Assembly: GCF_026988555.1 (NCBI RefSeq)
Contig: NZ_JALSLB010000042.1
Span: forward strand, 1 to 64,000
Source: Thermococcus sp.
GTDB lineage: Archaea; Methanobacteriota_B; Thermococci; Thermococcales; Thermococcaceae
Reading direction: 5' to 3'
Length of the DNA stretch: 64,000 nt
Below, piece after piece: positions 5,524 through 24,347 of the stretch. A program made the translations under genes and the position numbers. How positions within the stretch are numbered: the stretch's first letter is position 1; each line of letters begins with the position of its first letter. Below the pieces are notes generated by a model. The model searched no databases. It was not told the DNA's origin and was given only the letters and a program-made list of their open reading frames with translations.

Positions 5524-6261
5524 TTACTCTTTTTTGGAGAGAACTTCCCTAACCATCGCCCTGAACCTCTTCGCGTCTTTGCACATGTCCGAGTTGTTGA
5601 AGAAGACGAGGCTCTCCGAGCGGTTCCGGCCAGGAACCCTTTCCCTCACCTTTCCCAGCTCCTCGTCGCTGTAGGAGTGGCGGTAGATTATCCTCCCGTT
5701 CTCGTAGCGCCCGTGGAGGCGGTAGTAGCTGACCTCGCCGAGGTGAAGCGGAATCCTCACGAGCGGATCGGTCACGTCTATGACATCAAAAGCTCTCACG
5801 AAGCGTTTTACTCCATCTTCACTCCAGCCCCTCAGCTCCACCGCTATCTCAAAGCCTCCCCGCTCTATCGTTTCAAAAAACCTCTCGGCGCTGGTAAAAC
5901 TCTCCTCGCTCTCCCTGAAGCTTTTGGGTAGCTGAATCAGTATAAACCTCGCACCGAGCGTTTTCGCTTCTTGCAGGGTTATCCTCCAGAAGTTAAGCAC
6001 CTCGCTGTTCAACCTTAACAGGCCTACATTCTTCCCTGGCTTTACGTTGCTCCTGCGCCACGTCGGGTTGTTAGACGGGTGGGTAACTCCTTGAAATGCC
6101 TTGATGGCAAAGGTAAAGCCCTCCGGAGCTTCTCTCCGCCAGCGTTCGAGCGTCTTCTCCTGAAGTATCCGGTAGAAGGTCTGCTGCACCTCTATAGCGT
6201 CGAAGTCGCGGTAGTAATTCGAATGGCTCTCGCAGAAGCCGCATGTCCCGACGTTAATCAC
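5524..6261 (-). CDS. DUF72 (YecE-like) family protein
   Basis: TIM-barrel-like family of unknown biochemical role, widespread in bacteria and archaea. Hallmarks are the N-terminal GTCGF followed by YY, the EVQQTFY segment, FAIKAFQGVTH, a WRI...LGARFILIQLP strand, EVELRGW-like strand (IAVELRGWSED) and the C-terminal YYRLHGR with VFFNNSD. Length about 245 aa is normal. I prefer GTG at 6261 because GGTGGT lies just upstream; an in-frame GTG at 6270 would add three residues. Divergent from the DHPS-like gene. Confidence 0.85.
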   Translation of the reverse strand: MINVGTCGFCESHSNYYRDFDAIEVQQTFYRILQEKTLERWRREAPEGFTFAIKAFQGVTHPSNNPTWRRSNVKPGKNVGLLRLNSEVLNFWRITLQEAKTLGARFILIQLPKSFRESEESFTSAERFFETIERGGFEIAVELRGWSEDGVKRFVRAFDVIDVTDPLVRIPLHLGEVSYYRLHGRYENGRIIYRHSYSDEELGKVRERVPGRNRSESLVFFNNSDMCKDAKRFRAMVREVLSKKE

Positions 6262-6322
6262 CCATACCACCGCTGGTCGTTTCTTCCAAAAGCCTAAATA
6301 CTTTCGGGGTTAATTCCAATCC

Positions 6323-7861
6323 ATGAGGCCACCCGCAAAAATCCTCTTAGTTACCGGGAAACTCGCCGAACCCCTCGTGAGGAAGTACGGTGAAGGCTGC
6401 GACGTCTTCGTTACGCCGGTGAGCGTTGCCGCCTTCCTGACGCCCGAGATGGTAGTTCACTACCTGAAAAAGGCCGGAATCAAAAACGGGGACTACGACA
6501 TAATCCTCATCCCCGGGCTCGTCCGCGGTTCCACCGGACTTATTGAGGACGAACTCGGAATCCCTGCCTTCAAAGGGCCGAGGAACGCGATGGACATCCC
6601 TCAAACGCTTAAAGCCCTGGGTGAGGGTTTCAGGCTCAGCAAAGAAAAACCGGCGGACGAGCTCTTCTCCTTCGATGCCCTAAAGCGCGTCGAGGACATC
6701 AGAAATAAGACTAGAAACAGGCGCTATATCGAGAAGGCCTTCAAGAAGCCGTGGAACGTCCTCATCGGCAACCTCCCCGCGGGGAGGGACTTTCCGGCGA
6801 GGATTTTAGGGGAAGTTGTCGATGCCCCGAGACTCGGGGTTGAAAAGACCGTCGAGAGGGCCCTATACTACCTCCGGGAGGGGGCCGATATAATCGACAT
6901 CGGCATGGTGACTGGAGAGACCAACCTCGATTTTATCGAGCTGATTCCCGAAATCCGCGAGAGGCTTGGGGAGAAGGGCTTTGAAGTCCCTATAAGCTTT
7001 GACTCCCTCAACACCGCTGAAATCGAGAAGGCGCTCGAATACGCCGATCTCTTCCTCAGCGTTGACGGGGGGAACCTTGAGGAGCTCGTAACGGAGAAAC
7101 CCGTTGTTTTAATCCCGACCAATCAGGGGAGGGGCTTTTTCCCTACCAGGCCGTCCGAGAGGGTTGAATTCCTAGAAAACCTCAAGAAGCAGGCCCTTGA
7201 TTTGGGTTATAAAACTGTAATACCTGACCTGATTTTGGAGCACGTCCCCCACTTAGCGCGCTCCCTTACTGCCTTCCAACTCTACCGCGGGAGGAATCCG
7301 GACGACGTTCTTTTGGCCGGGGTCGGCAACGTTGTCGAACTCTACGATGCTGACAGCGTCGGGATGAACGCCCTGCTGGCGGGAATCGCGAAGGAACTTT
7401 CAATAAACCTCCTCCTCACGACCGAGACGAGCGCCAAAGCCAGGGGCTCCATAAGGGAGCTCAGGCGGGCGATAGACATGAACCTCTTTGAGATGCCAAA
7501 GGATTTGGGCTTCGACCTGCTCCTCTTAAAGGAAAAGAGGCCTGCTGACTGGCGATTTGAACCCACGGGGGAAGTCATCAAGGCAAGGGAAAGGCCGGTT
7601 CAGCTTGAGCCTATCTACTTCCGGATCTGGGTTGAAGGAGGAAAAATCTGGGTCAACGCTCACCGCGGGACAGAGGCCGTTCTCACGATAGTCGGCGAGG
7701 AGCCGAACGCGATAATCGACACGATTCTGGAGCACTTTGAGATAAGCCCAAGGCACACCTTCTACCTCGGCAGGGAGATTGAGAGGGCCAAAACGGCGCT
7801 GAAGCTGAGGAGGAGCTACGTCCAGGAGGTTGAAGTATTCCAGGATTTTTATGAAGGTTGA
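6323..7861 (+). CDS. Dihydropteroate synthase-like protein (DUF6513 plus pterin-binding domain)
   Basis: Two-part archaeal protein of 512 aa. The first about 130 residues form the archaeal-specific N domain (KILLVTGKLAEPLVRKY). From about residue 145 there is a pterin-binding TIM barrel resembling dihydropteroate synthase, with GADIIDIGMVTGE, FDSLN, SVDGGN and the C-terminal part. The family is annotated as DHPS-related; whether it makes a pterin in Thermococcales is not established. There is no ribosome site before ATG 6323, and a TATA-like CCTAAATACT about 25-30 bases upstream suggests a leaderless transcript. Confidence 0.85.
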   Translation: MRPPAKILLVTGKLAEPLVRKYGEGCDVFVTPVSVAAFLTPEMVVHYLKKAGIKNGDYDIILIPGLVRGSTGLIEDELGIPAFKGPRNAMDIPQTLKALGEGFRLSKEKPADELFSFDALKRVEDIRNKTRNRRYIEKAFKKPWNVLIGNLPAGRDFPARILGEVVDAPRLGVEKTVERALYYLREGADIIDIGMVTGETNLDFIELIPEIRERLGEKGFEVPISFDSLNTAEIEKALEYADLFLSVDGGNLEELVTEKPVVLIPTNQGRGFFPTRPSERVEFLENLKKQALDLGYKTVIPDLILEHVPHLARSLTAFQLYRGRNPDDVLLAGVGNVVELYDADSVGMNALLAGIAKELSINLLLTTETSAKARGSIRELRRAIDMNLFEMPKDLGFDLLLLKEKRPADWRFEPTGEVIKARERPVQLEPIYFRIWVEGGKIWVNAHRGTEAVLTIVGEEPNAIIDTILEHFEISPRHTFYLGREIERAKTALKLRRSYVQEVEVFQDFYEG

Positions 7862-15419: not shown

Positions 15420-16040
15420 TCATTCTCCCCCGTATGCCCTGAGGTAAATCTCCTTTATCTCTTCCGGCCTCGGCTCGACGGGGTTGAAAGCTATAAGCCC
15501 GTCGCGGTAGGCTTTTTCTGCCATCTCGTCAAGCCTCACCACGAAGGTCTCCCCATCAACCAGCTCGCCCAGCTTTGGAACACCGAGCATCTCGTTGAGT
15601 TCTTTAACCACTTCAATGAGGTCTTTGGCATTCTGGAAGCCAAGCTCCCTCGCTATCTCCGCGTAGCGCCTCCTCGCGTAGTCGCTTCTCTCGGCGTTGA
15701 ACTCCATCACGTAGGGCAGGAATATCGCGTTGAGGAGTCCATGCGGACCAATCCACGCTGCCTTGTGGCTCATCGCGTGGCATAGGCCGAGGCGCGCGTT
15801 GAGGAATGCTATTCCCGCCATCGTCGCCGCGTAGTGAACCCTTGCTCTTGCCTCCTCGTCGCCTTTGACCGAGAGAGGAAGCCACCGATAGACGGTCTTT
15901 ATCGCTTTAATCGCCATGGCGTCGCTGAAGGGGTTAGCAACCTTGGTTGTGTAGGCCTCTATCCCGTGGACGAGGACGTCAAGGCCGGAGTTCCTCGCGA
16001 CTTCAGGGGGTGTCGAGAGAGTTTCAAAGATTATCTAGGA
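15420..16040 (-). pseudogene. Iron-containing alcohol dehydrogenase, N-terminal half missing
   Basis: Only the C-terminal all-helical half of a group III (iron) alcohol dehydrogenase remains. The recognisable sequence begins about FETLSTPPEVARNSGLDVLV and continues through GIEAYTT, the metal-ligand region CHAMSHKAAWIGPHG and the family C terminus. A TAG lies in frame just upstream (about 16036), and no NAD-binding half (GGGS motif) exists in the window. An internal ATG at 15917 could start a 165-aa fragment but it would lack the cofactor site. The break point coincides with the left edge of the accessory island, so an insertion or deletion removed the 5' half. Confidence 0.85.
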
Positions 16041-16057
16041 GAAGGGGGAGTATTACA

Positions 16058-16162
16058 TTGAAGGAATGCCCGTTAAGGCCTACAAAAGAGCTGGACGGGA
16101 TTGAGGTTTGGCTGGACTGGAATGGTTACGCATTCACCTTCATGCTCCCAGAGGAATATTGA
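16058..16162 (+). CDS. Tiny protein (34 aa) at island edge, function unknown
   Basis: TTG 16058 follows GGGGGAG at about 16044-16050. It reads 34 aa rich in aromatic residues (WLDWNGYAFTFM) and ends 10 bases before the next gene, so the two are probably co-transcribed. The frame stays open upstream into the dehydrogenase remnant, so it could instead be the tail of a gene cut by the island junction. No family recognised. Confidence 0.35.
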   Translation: MKECPLRPTKELDGIEVWLDWNGYAFTFMLPEEY

Positions 16163-16172
16163 GGTGAGGAGA

Positions 16173-16427
16173 ATGGGGGTTTCTCTTTCTCAAATTCTTG
16201 ACGAAGTAGAATACTACCTTTATTACAAACACTACGACAAACTGAATCTCGATTTTGAGACCAAGGAAACCAAGACCCAGATTAAAGTCATAGCTTACGA
16301 CTGTAAAACCGGGGCAATCATTGAAACAATCACTTTGAAGAAAAAAGAGCTTCTCAATGACCCCCTTGGAGTTTTTGAGAAGTTTAAGACCCTCAAGGAG
16401 GAGACCATAAAGGGTCTTTCCGCTTAA
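16173..16427 (+). CDS. Small protein (84 aa) upstream of the peptide-maturation cluster
   Basis: ATG 16173 has a strong GAGGTGAGG site (16161-16169). The product is a charged alpha/beta protein (YYLYYKHYDKLNLDF near the N terminus, then a Lys/Glu-rich C terminus) with no recognised family. It lies about 160 bases upstream of the radical SAM gene and reads the same way. It could be an accessory or regulatory protein of that cluster, or an unrelated island gene. Confidence 0.6.
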   Translation: MGVSLSQILDEVEYYLYYKHYDKLNLDFETKETKTQIKVIAYDCKTGAIIETITLKKKELLNDPLGVFEKFKTLKEETIKGLSA

Positions 16428-16539
16428 GTTTTGAAACTTTTGTTAGGACTTTTCTTCAACTTTCTAAAAAATCAACCGATTTTAGGGGAGAATAAGAGTA
16501 TAAAAAGCATGTGGAAGTAGCAAAAAGTTTTAAAACTTT
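16426..16539. promoter_or_regulatory. Promoter region with two related palindromes before the radical SAM gene
   Basis: A perfect 16-bp palindrome AAAGTTTTAAAACTTT lies at 16524-16539, just after a TATA-like GTATAAAAAG (16499-16508). A similar but imperfect copy, AAGTTTTGAAACTTT, sits at 16426-16440, over the stop of the 84-aa gene. Placement of the perfect copy between TATA box and start codon is what an operator of an autoregulated cluster would look like. No regulator gene is identified within the cluster. Confidence 0.55.
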
Positions 16540-16584
16540 GACTTACATAATATACTCCCGGACAACCCCAAGGAGCGGGTTCTA

Positions 16585-18086
16585 ATGAGTGTGGTTCAAT
16601 TAAAGGCATCACGACCATAAAATCCAAAATTGCCAATATCCCCAAGTTCTTCGTTCTCCACGAAGGTTCGGGATACATCATCGAAGTTGAACCCGAAACC
16701 TACTCCGGCCTTCAGAAAATAAGCCAAGGAAAGAAGGACAAACTGACCCCAGAGGAAAGAGCGAAGCTCAAAGAACTTCAGGATTACTTAAATCAACTCC
16801 CACCCCTGAAACTCGAATACAACGAGGGCTATGGCTTCCTCCTTGGAGGAAGCATCAACGTCTCTCAGGCCTGTAACTTCTCCTGCATTTACTGTTACGC
16901 CAACAAAGGCACTTACACCCTCGAAAAGCCCAAACTCATGGACAGGGAGACTATGAGGAAAGCCATTGACTTCCTCTTCGACAAAGCCCCTTATGGTGTT
17001 AGTATCGTCTTCTTCGGGGGAGAACCACTCCTCAACTTCCCAGTCATCAAAGAGGGCGTCCTATACGCCGAACAGAAAGCCAAGGAGAGTAGAAAGCCCG
17101 TATTCTTCAGCGTTACCACAAACGGATACCTCCTCACTCCGGAGGTCGTGGACTTCCTTCTGAGCCATCCGTTTAATATCATCGTCAGCGTGGACGGGCC
17201 GAGGGAGATTCACGACCACAATAGGCCTTTTGTGGACGGTTCACCGACATATAACGTTGTAGCAAATAATCTCAAATACCTCATTAGAGAAGCCAAAAAG
17301 AGAGGAAAACTTGAGAAGATTATCCTAAGGGCTACTGTCCTCCCAGAGCAATTGAACAGGGTTCATGAGATTTATCATCACCTTAAAACCGAGTTTGGAG
17401 TTCTCAACGCCAACGTTGAGATGGCTACTCTTCCAACTAATGTCATCACTAAGGAACACATGGACACCTATCTTGAACAGCTCAGAAAAATTGCCGTTGA
17501 GGAGCTGGATACATTTAAAGAGTTACAAACAATTGTGCATACCGGATTAAGACAAACAATACTCGACATATACCAAGGGAAAGTCAGAAAATACCATTGC
17601 GGTGCAGGACGAAGAGGAGTTGCCATTGATGTAGATGGCAACATCTATCCATGCCATAGGTTCGTTAGCATGGAGAACTTCAAGCTCAGCCACGTGGATA
17701 ACTTTGAGTGGGAGCATCTGAAACGCTTTGAGCCTCAAAAATACAATTTCTCCAATCATGAACCCTGTAAGAGTTGCTGGCTAAGGTTTTACTGCCACAA
17801 CTTCTGCTTCTATGAAAACACCATCTACACCGAAAAGAGCTTCATTCCACCGGCATTGAAGTGTTATTATGCCAAAGAGTCCTTCAAAATAAGTCTTTGG
17901 CTTTACGCCCGTCTCTGGGACGAGTATGGAGACGAGTTCGAGAGATTTTTAGAGAATTCTACCCCAACCCCCAGTTTAGACCCAGAGAACACCCCTGAGA
18001 TTAAATCAGAAACTATTACGACCACAACTCTACACGGAGGTGGTGCAACCGGAGGGTTGCCCAAAACGGAGGAGGTAGAAATATGA
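16585..18086 (+). CDS. SPASM-type radical SAM peptide maturase (frame broken near start)
   Basis: Predicted to modify the two small cysteine peptides encoded directly downstream. The cluster-binding CNFSCIYC motif has Cys codons at 16872, 16884 and 16893; FFGGEPLLN follows. The C-terminal SPASM region has YHCGAG, DGNIYPCHRF, PCKSC, YCHNFC and a last Cys, enough for two auxiliary Fe-S clusters. The YPCHRF signature is typical of thioether-forming maturases such as the SCIFF enzyme. About 80 residues before the core may be a peptide-recognition domain (FFVLHEGSGYIIEVE). No ATG, GTG or TTG exists in frame before 16938, beyond the cluster motif. ATG 16585, with GGAG nine bases upstream, joins the frame if one A is restored in the AAA at 16602-16604. 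Restored length about 500 aa. Confidence 0.88.
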
Positions 18087-18178
18087 TAGGACAAGACCAA
18101 AGGAAAAAGGACGACATGCTTTGTGCATCCATTGGAGACCAGCTTTGTGAGATAAACATCGTAAAGGATGTTATTTGA
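18083..18178 (+). CDS. Putative RiPP precursor peptide 1 (31 aa)
   Basis: Starts within the stop of the radical SAM gene (ATGA overlap at 18083-18086) after GGAGGAGG, so translation is coupled to the enzyme. The peptide has a short basic leader and a core DDMLCASIGDQLCE with two Cys seven residues apart, then a hydrophobic tail. Its core closely matches the next peptide, which is the main reason to believe both are real genes. Likely fate: radical thioether or other crosslinking by the upstream enzyme, leader removal by an unidentified protease, and export. Function of the product is unknown. Confidence 0.75.
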   Translation: MIGQDQRKKDDMLCASIGDQLCEINIVKDVI

Positions 18179-18205
18179 TTAAAAAAAGAGAAAGGAGGTG
18201 ATAAG

Positions 18206-18310
18206 ATGAGGGCTATGGTGAAGACCAAGCCGAGGATGGATGACGATATGCTTTGTTCGGCCATCGGCGACGGATGGTGCGAAGTGGACGAGAGAGAGGA
18301 AATCTACTAA
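18206..18310 (+). CDS. Putative RiPP precursor peptide 2 (34 aa)
   Basis: ATG 18206 follows an excellent ribosome site GGAGGTGAT (18194-18202). The core reads DDDMLCSAIGDGWCE, the same pattern as peptide 1 (DDMLC, two small residues, IGD, two variable residues, CE), with a different basic leader and an acidic tail. The variable pair before the second Cys (GW against QL) and the divergent tails suggest two distinct products processed by one enzyme. The gene lies 27 bases after peptide 1 and ends before a T-rich tract (about 18352-18364) that may terminate the transcript. Confidence 0.75.
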   Translation: MRAMVKTKPRMDDDMLCSAIGDGWCEVDEREEIY

Positions 18311-18364
18311 ACATCCACCATACACCCCCAATTAGCGGGTTCAAACCTCTTTTTCTCTTTATTT

Positions 18365-18396
18365 TGATGTGCAAAAACAAAAAGCTTTTTACATCA
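18365..18396. promoter_or_regulatory. Inverted repeat in the promoter of the island transporter
   Basis: TGATGT (18365-18370) and ACATCA (18391-18396) form an interrupted inverted repeat whose inner parts are also complementary (AAAAA against TTTTT). It lies in the 131-base gap between precursor peptide 2 and the transporter, upstream of a probable TATA element (AAATAAAACC, about 18398). It could be an operator or the stem of a terminator for the peptide transcript. Confidence 0.4.
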
Positions 18397-18441
18397 GAAA
18401 TAAAACCATAAACTGCTAAAACCATGTCAGGGGGGCTTTAA

Positions 18442-19653
18442 ATGGATTTGATTCGGAAGTATAAGCTCTTTTATGCTTTAATAAACATGGGCTTCGTTGG
18501 AAACATTCTCATCATCTACTACTTAACCAGGGGATTCAACTACGCCCAAATAGGAACCGCAACAGCAGTAATGACCGCCGGATACGTCCTCTTCGAAGTC
18601 CCAACCGGAGTAGTAGCAGATAAAATCAGCCGAAAACTAAGCGTCCTCATCGGACTAATCATCCACACCCTCGGCCTCCCCGTCCTAATCCTCCTCAACA
18701 GCTACCCCCTCCTCATCCTCTACTCAATCCTAAACGCCCTCGGCGGAACATTCGCCAGCGGAAGCCTCCAAGCATGGCTATACTACAACCTCAAACACCT
18801 CGGCAGAGAAAAAGAATACAGACAACTCATGAAAGACATCAAAACCCTCACAATCCCCCTCTCAGCCACAACCCTCATAATCGGCGGATTCTTAGCCCAA
18901 TACTACGGGTTCACACTCCCGCTAATCCTAACCCTCCTTGCAGAGATAACCGCTATTGTAGTGGCTTACACGATTCCGGAGTATGAATTCAAAAAGCCCG
19001 AACGCTCCTACCTCAAACACACTCTTGAGGCCTCCAGAAAACTCCTCCGGCCAGAACTCCTCTGGCTCATAATCCTCTCAATCATCGTTACGATGCAAGT
19101 AAGCCAGTTCAGGAAATTCTTTGAACCCTACCTCGGAGACATCCTCGCCAAGAACCTAAAGACAACCCTAATCGGCACACTCGGAATCCTCGGAGTGGTC
19201 GAAGCCATCGTCAAAGTCATCCCAAGGCTCATTGGAATACACCTGAGAGACAAATGGAGCGTTAAGGCTTATTCCCTCGCCCCCCTCGTTATTCCACTCT
19301 TAACGGCCCTCTCTGTAGTTTACCAGAACCCGCTATGGATTATCACCTTGGGGATTGTGGTTACGGTAGTCAATACTGCCTTCGGCTTCAACGTCTCGAT
19401 TGAATTGCAACACAGGATTCCGAGAGAGGAGAGGGCTACCATAAGGTCTCTGGACATGATGGTTTCAGCGTTGGTCATGAGTGCCTTTTACTTCATCTAC
19501 GGTTTCGTCGTGGACTGGCTGGGACTGGCTGAGGCGAGATTACTCTTCGCCCTAATCCTCCTCGGTGCTGGAGTCTCATTGAAGGCCGGAGAACTCTTAG
19601 GCCCACTTAAAGACGTTCTAAAACTCAAACACATGGAAGCTATGATCAAATAA
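18442..19653 (+). CDS. MFS transporter, putative peptide exporter
   Basis: Integral membrane protein of 403 aa with about 12 predicted helices; the MFS loop motif is GVVADKISRKLS after the second helix. Placement directly after two precursor peptides suggests export of, or immunity to, the modified peptide, which is inference from context. ATG 18442 follows AGGGGGGC. The coding strand from about 18540 to 18950 is strikingly rich in A and C and poor in G and T compared with both neighbours, including its own 3' half, which may mark a different origin or recombination within the gene. Confidence 0.85.
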   Translation: MDLIRKYKLFYALINMGFVGNILIIYYLTRGFNYAQIGTATAVMTAGYVLFEVPTGVVADKISRKLSVLIGLIIHTLGLPVLILLNSYPLLILYSILNALGGTFASGSLQAWLYYNLKHLGREKEYRQLMKDIKTLTIPLSATTLIIGGFLAQYYGFTLPLILTLLAEITAIVVAYTIPEYEFKKPERSYLKHTLEASRKLLRPELLWLIILSIIVTMQVSQFRKFFEPYLGDILAKNLKTTLIGTLGILGVVEAIVKVIPRLIGIHLRDKWSVKAYSLAPLVIPLLTALSVVYQNPLWIITLGIVVTVVNTAFGFNVSIELQHRIPREERATIRSLDMMVSALVMSAFYFIYGFVVDWLGLAEARLLFALILLGAGVSLKAGELLGPLKDVLKLKHMEAMIK

Positions 19654-19836
19654 ACTTTGATTGGGCTTTGTTTTTGTCTAATTAATCTTGTATCTTACTT
19701 TGGGTGATATCCGAGGAATCTGTGCATTTTCCAGATAATCCATCCAGCTAAAAGCATAAGGTACTTAATTTCCAAAACCTTTATATTCAAAAATTCTCAT
19801 TTTTATCCAGTTATATTGTGATTATGGTGAGAAAAT

Positions 19837-20607
19837 ATGAATACCACGGAGGTCTTAAGACGGCTTTCCGAACTGGGTGATGTATTCACCAAGAAGGAGG
19901 CCCAAGAGAAACTTGGCATAACTACGAGGCAGTTAAGCTACTATCTTGAAGCGCTCCTCAGAGAAGGATTTCTTCGGAGAATTGCCAAGGGCATCTACAC
20001 TTTCTCCTTAGAACCGGGGAGAGCATCTTCCCCCCATGAATTTGTTCTAGCTCAGATTTTGGTACCTAACGGGGCAGTTGCGTACTGGTCCGCCCTCAAC
20101 TATTACGGGTTAACTGAGCAGATTCCAAGAACAGTTTTCATTCAAACTCCCGTAAAGAGAGGCTATCAAAAGCTCATAGTACTCGACGGTAAGAGGTTTA
20201 AGGTAGTCGTAGTCAGCCCTGAGAAGTTTTTTGGAATAGGCACTATACGTCTTGGACGCAGGGAGATTCGAATAACAGATCCTGAAAAGACGATAGTGGA
20301 CTGCCTAGACAAGCCTAAGTACTGCGGGGGAATAATCGAGGTCGTTAAGGCTCTCAAGAACGCGAGGCTGGATTATGAAAAGTTGCTGGAATATGCTGAA
20401 CGGATGAAGAGCAAAGCCATCCTGAAGCGTTTGGGATTTTTAAGTGAGAGGCTGGAGCTTGGGATTGAGAAGGAAATCAGACTTTCTGAAAATGACAAAA
20501 AGAGCTTTGCACTTCTCGACCCTTCAATGCCTCAGGGAGGTCGCTTTAACTATCGGTGGGGCCTGAGAATCAACGTTCCGGAGGATTATTGGGAGGAGGT
20601 AGAATGA
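19837..20607 (+). CDS. AbiEi-type antitoxin (type IV toxin-antitoxin)
   Basis: 256 aa. The N-terminal winged helix (GVTKKEA-like stretch, residues 15-60) is followed by the AbiEi family C domain (VAYWSALNYYGLTEQIP, RKIRITDPEKTIVDCLD-like). In AbiE systems this protein represses its own promoter and counters the toxin without binding it. ATG 19837 has GGTGA six bases upstream and a TATA-like CTTTATATTC near 19780. The stop overlaps the toxin start by four bases (ATGA), the standard order antitoxin then toxin. Confidence 0.85.
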   Translation: MNTTEVLRRLSELGDVFTKKEAQEKLGITTRQLSYYLEALLREGFLRRIAKGIYTFSLEPGRASSPHEFVLAQILVPNGAVAYWSALNYYGLTEQIPRTVFIQTPVKRGYQKLIVLDGKRFKVVVVSPEKFFGIGTIRLGRREIRITDPEKTIVDCLDKPKYCGGIIEVVKALKNARLDYEKLLEYAERMKSKAILKRLGFLSERLELGIEKEIRLSENDKKSFALLDPSMPQGGRFNYRWGLRINVPEDYWEEVE

Positions 20608-21443
20608 TTGAGGAGGAGATAAAGGCCCTGAGTTCTGAGCTTGGAGTCCCGGTTTCTACCGTTGAAAAGGACTACGCCATAAGCTGGATGCTCTATGGAC
20701 TCTGGAAGTCAAAGTTTTGGAGAGTACTAGCATTCAAAGGAGGGACCTGCCTGAAAAAGGCATACTTTGCAGACTACAGATTTTCTGAGGATCTTGACTA
20801 CACCTTGCTTTTAGAGGAGCCGGATACAGAGGAGGTTCAAACTAAAATAGCCGACGCCGTTGAAGTGGCCGATGAGGGGCCCGTTCAGTTCCTTGAGTTT
20901 GAACTAAGGCCAAGATACGGGGTAAAGCTTTTTCCAGGAGAGCTTCTTGGGTTTGAAGTCCGGATTCCGTTTAGACTGCTCACTAGAACCGGGAATCCAC
21001 CGAAGATTAAAATGGACATAACTCTAGAAAAGTACGAGAAAATACTGCTTCCACCCCAGGAAAGGCCGATCCTGCATGGGTATTCCGACAGCCCAAGGTT
21101 TTCCGTGGTAAGCGTTAAGACTTATAGTTTGGAGGAAATACTGGCTGAGAAAATAAGGTCTCTGTTCCAGAGGACGAGGCCAAGGGATTTGTATGATATA
21201 TGGTTTCTGAAAAGCGTTGCTGATTTAGAAAGTGTAGCTCAGATACTCAGTCCAAAGTTTGAGGCTAAGAGTGTTGAGCCAGATGTGAATGCGCTTCAAG
21301 GCAGAAAACCCTACTATGAAAGGGCCTGGCAGAGCAGTCTGGGCCACCAGTTGAGAGAACTTCCAGAATTTAGTACGGTGTGGAACGATGTCCTGGAATT
21401 AGTGAAGGATGTTCTAAGTAAGCTGGACAATTTCAAGGACTAG
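20604..21443 (+). CDS. AbiEii-type nucleotidyltransferase toxin (DUF1814)
   Basis: 279 aa. Nucleotidyltransferase signatures are FKGGTCLKKAYF, SEDLDYTL (catalytic Asp pair) and the C-terminal EEILAEKIRSLFQR and RPRDLYDIWFL, which define the DUF1814/AbiEii family. Such toxins add nucleotides to target RNAs; in bacteria AbiE confers phage resistance or stabilises mobile DNA. I start at ATG 20604, overlapping the antitoxin stop, rather than further upstream. Together with the recombinase, it fits an addiction module of the island. Confidence 0.88.
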   Translation: MIEEEIKALSSELGVPVSTVEKDYAISWMLYGLWKSKFWRVLAFKGGTCLKKAYFADYRFSEDLDYTLLLEEPDTEEVQTKIADAVEVADEGPVQFLEFELRPRYGVKLFPGELLGFEVRIPFRLLTRTGNPPKIKMDITLEKYEKILLPPQERPILHGYSDSPRFSVVSVKTYSLEEILAEKIRSLFQRTRPRDLYDIWFLKSVADLESVAQILSPKFEAKSVEPDVNALQGRKPYYERAWQSSLGHQLRELPEFSTVWNDVLELVKDVLSKLDNFKD

Positions 21444-22039: not shown

Positions 22040-22222
22040 TCATTGAAGATTCTGTTTGTATTTTCTTCCTTTCACATTATCCCACCATTCATCTTCTGGT
22101 CTGTTCCAGTCTTCAGCTAAAATTGGCTCAATATTTTTGAGCATTCCTAAGATAAACTCTTCATCTTCGTCCTTTGGGATATAGTAGGTTTTCTTTTTCT
22201 TTCCCTGGATCAACGTTATCAA
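22040..22222 (-). CDS. Small charged protein (57-60 aa), function unknown
   Basis: The frame starts at TTG 22222, which overlaps the preceding stop (TTGA), after GGGGAGG; a TTG at 22213 has better spacing to that site and would give 57 aa. The product has a lysine-rich start and a Trp-containing acidic tail (EDWNRPEDEWWDN). No family recognised. It appears to be the third gene of the recombinase transcript. Confidence 0.5.
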   Translation of the reverse strand: MITLIQGKKKKTYYIPKDEDEEFILGMLKNIEPILAEDWNRPEDEWWDNVKGRKYKQNLQ

Positions 22223-22677
22223 ACCTCCCCTTCTTCTCGGACCAGCTCTGAATAAGATTCATAAAAGAATACCATATGATTCTTCATCTTTTCTGTCTTC
22301 ACTCTGTATTTATAGGCGAGTGTCCCAACGATTGTGACTTTTCGCTCCAGGAATCCATTCTTGTATAAGCGGTACAAGAACATTCTAATAAATGCTTCCC
22401 ACTTAGTGTCCTTAAGATCATTGGGGGAGAGGATGGAGTATTTTAAGAGTTCATCCATTAGTTCTCTAACTGTGAGCCACACCCAATCATTCTGAGCCAA
22501 GTAGCCCAAAACAAATATTTTTACTCTCACTCTCCGGTATTCTTCTGTGTTCTCTTTTAGCCTATCTTGAAGTTTAAGCAGATCTACGTAGACATCATCT
22601 AGGGCCAACTTTGAAATTTCAATTCTGGCATTTTTACTTTTCATCTTCCCGTGCTTTTTAACAGCGTATCCCCCCAT
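22219..22677 (-). CDS. Island protein of 152 aa, possibly winged-helix
   Basis: ATG 22677 is preceded by AGGGGTGAT (22689-22681). The product begins with a basic stretch and then looks helical with a possible winged-helix layout (LTVRELMDELLKYSIL ... FLYRLYKNGFLERK). I do not recognise the family. It follows the recombinase stop by a few bases, so the two are likely one transcript; a DNA-binding or replication accessory role in the mobile element is a guess. Confidence 0.6.
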   Translation of the reverse strand: MGGYAVKKHGKMKSKNARIEISKLALDDVYVDLLKLQDRLKENTEEYRRVRVKIFVLGYLAQNDWVWLTVRELMDELLKYSILSPNDLKDTKWEAFIRMFLYRLYKNGFLERKVTIVGTLAYKYRVKTEKMKNHMVFFYESYSELVREEGEV

Positions 22678-22693
22678 TTTATCACCCCTGTGG

Positions 22694-24048
22694 CTACACA
22701 ACTCCTTTTATTTTGTGGACAGTTTCTACCGAGTCAGAATTGAGATTGCTGGAAAAGAATCTCTGAACAGTTTCTTCACTCAGAACCAAAAGAAGTTCTG
22801 GCATGACTTCATCTATAATCGAGTCAACAAACAGTCTTGTAAGTCTCTTATACCTCCTGCGGAATCTTTTGTCTTCTGTAAGAGAAATGTAGTTCATGAA
22901 ATCGACACCCTCTGCTCTTCCAAGAAGATAGTTCTTGTACCTTCTCAGCTCATCCACAAGCCGAATTCCGCTTAGGAAATTCATGAAATCAGCCTTACCA
23001 TCGTCTACTAAGCTGTAAATCATGTTCTGAAGATGACTGTCAAAGAACTTTCTGAATAGTTTAATTGTGATTATTGGCTTATCCGGACGGCAGTATTTGA
23101 GCCAGGGATACTTTCGGTAGACTTTTTCCAGCTTTTTATGGCTTCTAAACGTCTCTTTGGGAGTGTAGTAGTGGGTGAATATCTTGTCTATGGAATAGAA
23201 GCCAAAAATTGGTTGTGTTGGATCTAGAACATATCTCTTTTTGAAAACCCTGAGTTCATTAACCAATACGGGATGTATGAATACTGGAGTAACACCTCCT
23301 CCATCCCGCCGTAGCTTTGCTCTCCTAAAGTATATTACTCCCTCTGTGAGGTCTATTTGCTTAATTCTTCTGCCTGTATCGTCAGAAGTAATGAATTGAA
23401 GGTCGTTAATTTCTGAGCCCCTAGCTCCAGTCATAAGGGCTATTAGAGTAGCAAGCCGAACCTTTTCTACTGTGATGGTGGGTCGCTCTGAGATAAGAAC
23501 CGAAAGCCATTTTAGTGCGAGCTTTATTTGATCTGGAGAAACAACCTTTTCCTTCTCTCTTTTCCAGTGAGTCTGCAGTTGTATGGCCTTTGATCGCATA
23601 GCAATTTTAGATACTAGTCCTAGATAGGTGGTCGGGTTGAAGACTTCATCCCCTAAGGCTCGGTTAAACTGATTCCGTATTTTTCCCAGAGGATGTGCTT
23701 CAGGGCTTCTTCAGTGTATTTAACCACAACCCTAAATGTGTGGGTGGATTTGCTCCTACGAGGGTCTTTGAGGTATTCGGAGAACACCTGGTACACATCC
23801 ATTGCGGTCAGTTTTATTATGGGGTTATCATCGGCTACAGGCCCCTTTATTCTCAGCAGGTACTCAATGAACGTGTTTATTGCAAATGATTTATTCTGAA
23901 AGGTGCCCGGACTCAGCTGTTTTAAGTTTCTCAAGCTTATGAGTTCCTCTTTATATTCATCAATGTCTCTAAGGTCGAGAAGTATGTAATCATCGGAGGA
24001 GTAAGGAACGGGCAGTTTTTGAGGACCTCCAAATCGTTTCCTCCTCAT
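22694..24048 (-). pseudogene. Archaeal tyrosine recombinase/integrase with a one-base frameshift
   Basis: Two frames make one gene. The first (24048-23653, 131 aa) is an N-terminal core-binding-like domain ending SLTEP then TAG. The second continues, without a start codon, through GDEVFNPTTYLGLVSK into the catalytic domain (ATG 23599 is internal). Restoring one base near 23655 fuses them to about 450 aa. Catalytic-type motifs: Arg in TGARGSEI, KLFRKFF in the box II position, and a probable nucleophile Tyr near MNYISLTEDKRF or FRRRYKRL. This pattern resembles integrases of Thermococcales plasmids and proviruses. If the frameshift is real, the island is immobile. ATG 24048 is preceded by GGCGTGA; a TATA-like GTTTATAAAC lies about 50 bases upstream. 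Confidence 0.8.
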
Positions 24049-24258: not shown

Positions 24259-24347
24259 AGGATTTAGGATGACACTCATCATCGGTCACTTCCACTAATG
24301 GGCAGGGCTTATTAAAGGTTTAGCCCGGAATTTCAATGGGGAGAGAC

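Follow-up and report, generated by a model that had tools for sequence, protein, structure and literature searches.

What does a radical S-adenosylmethionine (SAM) enzyme with a SPASM domain act on in a hyperthermophilic archaeon, when its gene is followed by two very small genes for cysteine-containing peptides and by a transporter gene? The question arises in Thermococcus sp. (assembly GCF_026988555.1), in the first 64,000 nucleotides of contig NZ_JALSLB010000042.1. This whole stretch is referred to as the window, and the contig that holds it (C42) is one of 68 in the draft genome. The gene order is enzyme, peptide 1, peptide 2 and a major facilitator superfamily (MFS) gene, all on the + strand, and the radical SAM/SPASM enzyme, small Cys peptides and MFS transporter are a genuine recurring gene set. 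Judged from sequence, the cassette is, with a probability of about 0.68, a ranthipeptide-type system for ribosomally synthesized and post-translationally modified peptides (RiPPs) that would make Cys-to-Asp thioether rings. A preliminary description of the window had proposed a RiPP locus with the small peptides as likely enzyme substrates. That core was supported and strengthened by the co-occurrence of enzyme and peptides in related loci, whereas corrections were needed to the start codon, to the "twin" nature of the peptides, to the genomic context and to the placement in a family.

The enzyme gene (16605..18086, +, open from codon 8 to the stop) encodes a candidate peptide maturase that matches PF04055 (radical SAM, E = 7e-18) and PF13186 (SPASM). 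The CX3CX2C triad expected to bind the radical SAM [4Fe-4S] cluster (16872..16895, +) is invariant in 21 sequences. Together with seven downstream cysteines it is conserved across 20 homologues, with the exception of the truncated copy in genome G014. The SPASM core with its YPCHRF motif lies at 17598..17780 (+), and conserved cysteines past it run up to Cys425 of alignment A1. The triad, the full SPASM cysteine set and YPCHRF had been noticed in the letters and were all confirmed. The AlphaFold2 model of the enzyme has a mean predicted local distance difference test score of 78, and its nearest solved fold is the SCIFF maturase CteB (5WHY/5WGG; template modelling score 0.83–0.85 by target length). 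The N-terminal domain (16608..16796, +) has a predicted beta-beta-beta-alpha-alpha topology and is a putative RiPP recognition element (RRE); Foldseek ranks CteB and TbiB1, an RRE protein of lasso-peptide biosynthesis, as its top neighbors, at E-values short of significance.

The best NCBIfam scores were obtained with the Nif11-like maturase model TIGR04064 (251 bits), the PapB model NF047865 (246 bits), the QhpD model TIGR03906 (233 bits) and the SCIFF model TIGR03974 (200 bits). The enzyme reached none of the NCBIfam equivalog cut-offs, which stand at 518.7, 340, 453 and 425 bits, respectively. The enzyme, grouped at first with the SCIFF maturase and its relatives, is thus not a SCIFF maturase. 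Assignment to each of the four families was rejected on these scores and on the company of the enzyme: the precursors have two core cysteines rather than the six of SCIFF, they carry C-X4-D once per peptide with no repeated C-X3-D as for PapB, they match no NCBIfam or Pfam family as Nif11 precursors would, and there are no quinohemoprotein amine dehydrogenase (QHNDH) genes among the cassette neighbors. The family scores and the CteB-like fold nevertheless relate the maturase to the PapB, QhpD and SCIFF enzymes, and it stands beside a Cys precursor with spaced acceptor residues, as in the ranthipeptide class. An enzyme search of the genome contig collection gave an unrelated Bacteroides match only. 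Viral contigs yielded only distant radical SAM relatives of at most 37% identity, and phage records held no match above 60% identity.

The precursors are 31–37 residues long. Peptide 1, MIGQDQRKKDDMLCASIGDQLCEINIVKDVI (18083..18178, +), overlaps the enzyme stop codon as ATGA, while peptide 2, MRAMVKTKPRMDDDMLCSAIGDGWCEVDEREEIY (18206..18310, +), follows the near-perfect ribosome site GGAGGTGAT; the coupling of both tiny genes to the enzyme was thereby upheld. Eleven precursors, ten of them aligned and one from the Thermococcus nautili 33-3 plasmid, share the core C-X4-D-X(1-2)-C, in which the second Cys is usually followed by E. Asp occupies position Cys+5 in all ten aligned precursors (shuffled mean 2.1; 0/1000 shuffles reach 10) and in the T. 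nautili peptide as the eleventh; aromatic residues, unlike this Asp, are not invariant. Counted from the second Cys, position Cys+5 is a Glu in 6/10 precursors, though not in either window peptide. A leader like MRALVKxKPK precedes the core in nine of the ten, the exception being peptide 1 of the window. Both window peptides therefore share the core motif, but only peptide 2 has the leader, and the idea of two equal twins was rejected. At the corresponding T. nautili position the peptide 1 core is absent.

The two matches that the degenerate pattern TGY-N12-GAY-N6-TGY-GAR (C-X4-D-X2-C-E) has in the 64 kb window lie in peptides 1 and 2; 0.08 were expected. In 115 genomes of the phylum the peptide motif CxxI[GA]DxxCE occurs six times, each time beside an enzyme of the clade described below (clade A), with no control matches; genome mining for the motif beside enzyme homologues, as had been suggested, thus pointed to these loci alone. 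Against the unannotated T. nautili plasmid orthologue, peptide 2 has a ratio of nonsynonymous to synonymous substitution rates (dN/dS) of 0.18 over 34 codons, which indicates purifying selection on this precursor.

Clade A comprises eight loci: the window, the T. nautili 33-3 plasmid THER333_p (NZ_OX281346) and genomes G056, G027, G028, G014, G086 and G089, the last two belonging to another genus of the same family. The MFS gene adjoins the enzyme in 8/8, several at unrelated sites, and precursors lie between enzyme and MFS gene in 7/8. G056 has four precursors, the window and G089 have two each, and G086, G027, G028 and T. nautili a single one each. The eighth locus, G014, lost its peptide by a deletion that begins at residue 310 of the enzyme and reaches into the precursor, so that the enzyme C-terminus and most of the precursor are gone. 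Enzyme homologues lacking a small Cys peptide, which would have spoken against a substrate role, were therefore represented only by this deletion. The G028 enzyme has a TGA near its C-terminus. In G056 (L050 9640-10060) the precursors stand in tandem, the third with ATA and the fourth with ACA at the expected place of the ATG. Copy numbers, missing ATGs, the deletion and the TGA together suggest that gain, duplication and decay are common in clade A. The T. nautili gene table, incomplete by its own description, has no entry between the genes for the radical SAM enzyme and the MFS protein. On that plasmid (L159 10455-10770, NZ_OX281346.1) the unannotated precursor MRAMVKTRPKMEDDMLCSRIGDQWCEASDKAEII was found between the two annotated genes, besides a leader-only remnant, MRELVKTNQMRR.

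Two further Thermococcales enzyme clades were examined, with nine (B) and four (C) loci, and Cys peptides lie directly downstream of the enzyme in 13/13. In the tree, A, B and C are monophyletic (100/97) and nearest, weakly (88/76), to the Nif11-peptide maturase. Clade B peptides have the leader MFKKLN and clade C peptides MEFEVVNPGD. In clade B the positions enriched for Asp are C+3 and C+4. In clade C, for which only two distinct peptides were counted, the enriched position is C+5, and Asp lies mostly at C+4 or C+5. ABC-type (ATP-binding cassette) or other membrane genes take the place of the MFS gene. The window's own genome also carries a clade B ranthipeptide-like locus (G000:C16:19787-21097; L061 7740-9497), made up of a SPASM enzyme, a pair of MFKKLN-type peptides with abundant CGxD repeats and, upstream, ABC ATPase-like and permease-like genes. 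In the clade C loci L063-L066 a peptide of the form MEFEVVNPGD...CGVLDQGGCPFPEDWECWWPEDICYRPEPI comes after the enzyme, together with membrane genes.

We infer the following course of maturation. The basic leader MRALVKxKPK would be held by the RRE-like N-terminal domain of the enzyme. The radical SAM cluster would generate a 5'-deoxyadenosyl radical, which would abstract hydrogen from the core Asp, at the methylene group of its side chain. Five residues before this Asp stands the first core Cys, whose thiolate is probably a ligand of a SPASM auxiliary cluster and would then close a ring from Cys sulfur to the Asp beta-carbon, Asp at Cys+5 being the likely acceptor of the thioether crosslink. 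The second Cys might form a second ring in those precursors with Glu at its own Cys+5. The leader would be cut off by a host protease, and the neighboring MFS protein would export the product and/or protect the producer. The invariant Asp gives indirect support to a non-alpha Cys thioether.

The window's enzyme gene appears to be disturbed near its start. The enzyme frame is open over 511 codons (16551-18083) and has no ATG, GTG or TTG before 16938, that is, none until downstream of CX3CX2C. The ATG at 16585, with the ribosome site AAGGAG upstream, had been taken as the start; it proved to be out of frame with the enzyme and reads MSVVQLKASRP, 11 codons, up to a stop at 16618-16620. Alignment to the T. 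nautili plasmid and G056 suggests that this frame (16585..16620, +) is the apparent original start. Compared with the intact T. nautili copy (enzyme WP_285520016.1), one G is missing from a GGG run near 16605, and G056 agrees. With one base missing from the run, the gene is therefore frameshifted or mis-sequenced near its start. Across the enzyme, window against T. nautili copy, dN is 0.076, dS 0.689 and dN/dS 0.11, a pattern that indicates purifying selection; any loss would thus be recent. The preliminary description was silent on the frameshift and the missing peptide 1 leader, as well as on the plasmid origin, the broken dehydrogenase gene and the MFS genes without an enzyme that are described below.

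Several points weigh against a ranthipeptide-type system. As sequenced, the window copy has no standard start codon from which the whole enzyme could be made. Taken alone, the fold match of the RRE falls short of significance (E 0.15 or worse), and the MFS family is also found without the enzyme. Clade A sequences are few and related, so that Asp in 10/10 is a sign of conservation and not the outcome of ten independent tests. PapB is described in one review (PMC8172795) as not accepting Cys-X4-Asp in one study, and its spacing is therefore not simply transferable to the cassette. A genuine RiPP with other chemistry, such as an alpha-carbon thioether (sactipeptide), a C–C or C–O crosslink, epimerization or the precursor of a small cofactor, has to be considered, given that SPASM enzymes catalyze many reactions, that CteB was first described as a sactisynthase and that every family score is under its curated cut-off. 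Such chemistry is unlikely in view of the invariant Asp at Cys+5, which no aromatic residue equals, and of the sister-clade enzymes, which likewise stand beside Cys/Asp-rich peptides. The relatives of known chemistry also join Cys to acidic residues: QhpD forms Cys-to-Asp/Glu thioethers (PMC7876137), and PapB, which links Cys with Asp in C-X3-D motifs, accepts Cys-Xn-Asp with n = 0-6 in vitro (PMC9413430). QhpD being among the best family matches, the enzyme could also mature a protein encoded elsewhere, with the small open reading frames (ORFs) arising by chance. The confinement of the motif to these loci, the purifying selection on precursor 2 and the four tandem precursors of G056 make this highly improbable.

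Two further readings are compatible with a ranthipeptide-type system in the family as a whole. The window locus itself may be dead, a real frameshift and the loss of the peptide 1 leader having left relics of a system that is alive elsewhere. This stands at close to an even chance: the single-base loss at codon 8, the missing leader and two further broken orthologues (the internal TGA of G028 and the deletion of G014) speak for it, whereas the ~490 codons hold no other stop, the core motifs are intact, dN/dS is low, and the indel, which falls within a run of three Gs in a draft of 68 contigs, may be a sequencing error. The MFS gene (18442..19653, +, PF07690), found next to the enzyme and peptides as first described, is a putative exporter and/or immunity pump, and its dN/dS of 0.12 points to purifying selection. 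It may instead be an immunity or general efflux gene, the peptide leaving by another route or staying inside, a reading that is plausible at somewhat under even odds. Orthologues of 76-90% identity lie next to AbiEi in four genomes lacking clade A enzyme and precursors (G010, G051, G031 and G050), relatives at 55-64% identity are widespread, and the sister clades carry ABC-type genes instead. Against this, no clade A locus lacks the adjoining MFS gene, even at unrelated sites. As its family also occurs without the enzyme, the MFS protein may export, protect or do both.

The cassette appears to move on plasmids, to be lost or broken often, and to have been inserted into the chromosome in this genome. 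Window positions 16089-19669 (84%) and 16007-16085 match the T. nautili plasmid, and the left end of the plasmid-derived insertion is at 16005..16172. To its left, at 15420-15917, lies a C-terminal fragment of an iron-containing alcohol dehydrogenase (Fe-ADH) gene, which is full-length in most relatives; the ADH alignment to G002 ends at 16004. Contig C25 (G000:C25:62657-63782) breaks off inside a second MFS copy; after this copy come sequence that matches the plasmid gene adjoining MFS and then the N-terminal part of the ADH gene. The split gene and the plasmid matches indicate that part of the ADH gene gave way to a segment of plasmid origin. An AbiEi/AbiEii toxin–antitoxin pair lies to the right of the MFS gene (19837-21443). 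Both genes also stand beside MFS in G010, G051 and G031, and AbiEi follows MFS in G050; the window gene at 24336 has a counterpart near the MFS–AbiE locus of G010. This context and the C25 copies suggest that two places of the chromosome meet in C42, inside the MFS gene. Near 19054 the contig may be chimeric, through assembly error or recombination, and the 3' part of the MFS gene may derive from the second MFS locus. The G056 cassette is flanked by two genes whose window homologues, 5524-6270 and 6323-7861, are direct neighbors with no cassette between them. On the - strand, the window gene at 22219 has a homologue of 50% identity on the T. nautili plasmid, and the one at 22694, within 22219-23599, resembles a tyrosine recombinase by eye, with no Pfam match.

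Upstream of the enzyme, the perfect palindrome AAAGTTTTAAAACTTT (16524..16539, +) resembles a BRE/TATA element (BRE, transcription factor B recognition element). It is the sole perfect copy in this genome and also precedes the enzyme gene of G056 and that of T. nautili, with a near-copy, AAAGTTTTTAAAACTTT, in G089; it is a putative promoter element. Sigma-70 promoter and terminator scans, whose models are unsuited to archaea, stayed at chance level, and an Rfam search found no RNA element. The 84-aa ORF at 16173..16427 (+), outside the core cassette, has 90% amino acid identity to its T. nautili plasmid copy and no Pfam match. It was rejected as an RRE or partner since only that copy shares it, the other clade A loci lacking it.

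The product most likely serves in competition among strains. Such a peptide, with the MFS protein as exporter or immunity factor, would fit the carriage on plasmids, the scattered distribution, the frequency of broken copies and the retention of the MFS gene without the enzyme. Work cited in PMC8326336 connects SCIFF-type ranthipeptides with clostridial quorum sensing, and signaling is therefore the alternative. A wider proposal is at present doubtful: Thermococcales would make diversified Cys-to-Asp thioether peptides with three or more clades of enzyme. Every clade would have a leader, a Cys-Asp spacing (and so a ring size) and transporter genes of its own, clade A would be a plasmid-carried competition cassette, and non-producers would keep the MFS gene beside the AbiE pair as immunity. 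Should Cys-to-Asp chemistry hold, a thioether maturase from a hyperthermophile with substrates of 31-37 residues would be a compact, probably heat-stable biocatalyst, the clades would offer Cys-Asp rings of naturally graded size for comparison with PapB, and Thermococcales would have a testable peptide weapon or signal. Genetic tools exist for the group (PMC12713403).

Haloarchaeal lanthipeptides are the characterized archaeal RiPPs reported in PMC12144867, where archaeal ranthipeptide clusters were counted by genome mining. No relevant paper on RiPPs, ranthipeptides or sactipeptides in Thermococcus or Thermococcales was found in the literature searched, which left most subscription papers outside. 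Precursors are unannotated even on the T. nautili plasmid, and such systems are therefore probably undercounted.

Among known systems, freyrasin with PapB is comparable in its SPASM radical SAM maturase, aligned over the catalytic part, and in Cys-Xn-Asp; PapA, however, has six C-X3-D motifs, while the cassette has two core cysteines and a natural C-X4-D. The gene of QhpD/PeaB, the maturase of the QHNDH gamma-subunit, overlaps its substrate gene qhpC, much as the enzyme gene overlaps peptide 1, but that substrate is a 108-aa enzyme subunit with three bonds. CteB is the closest solved structure by sequence and fold, and shares the YPCH motif. It has an N-terminal RRE, for which the enzyme has only a putative counterpart, and the SCIFF precursor differs in having six cysteines in ~45 residues and Cys-Thr bonds. 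The Nif11-like maturase, first in NCBIfam score and a weak sister in the tree, serves precursors with Nif11 leaders. Clades B and C have enzymes monophyletic with those of clade A and Cys/Asp peptides directly downstream; they differ in their leaders, in their usual Cys-Asp spacing, and in carrying ABC-type or other membrane genes in place of MFS.

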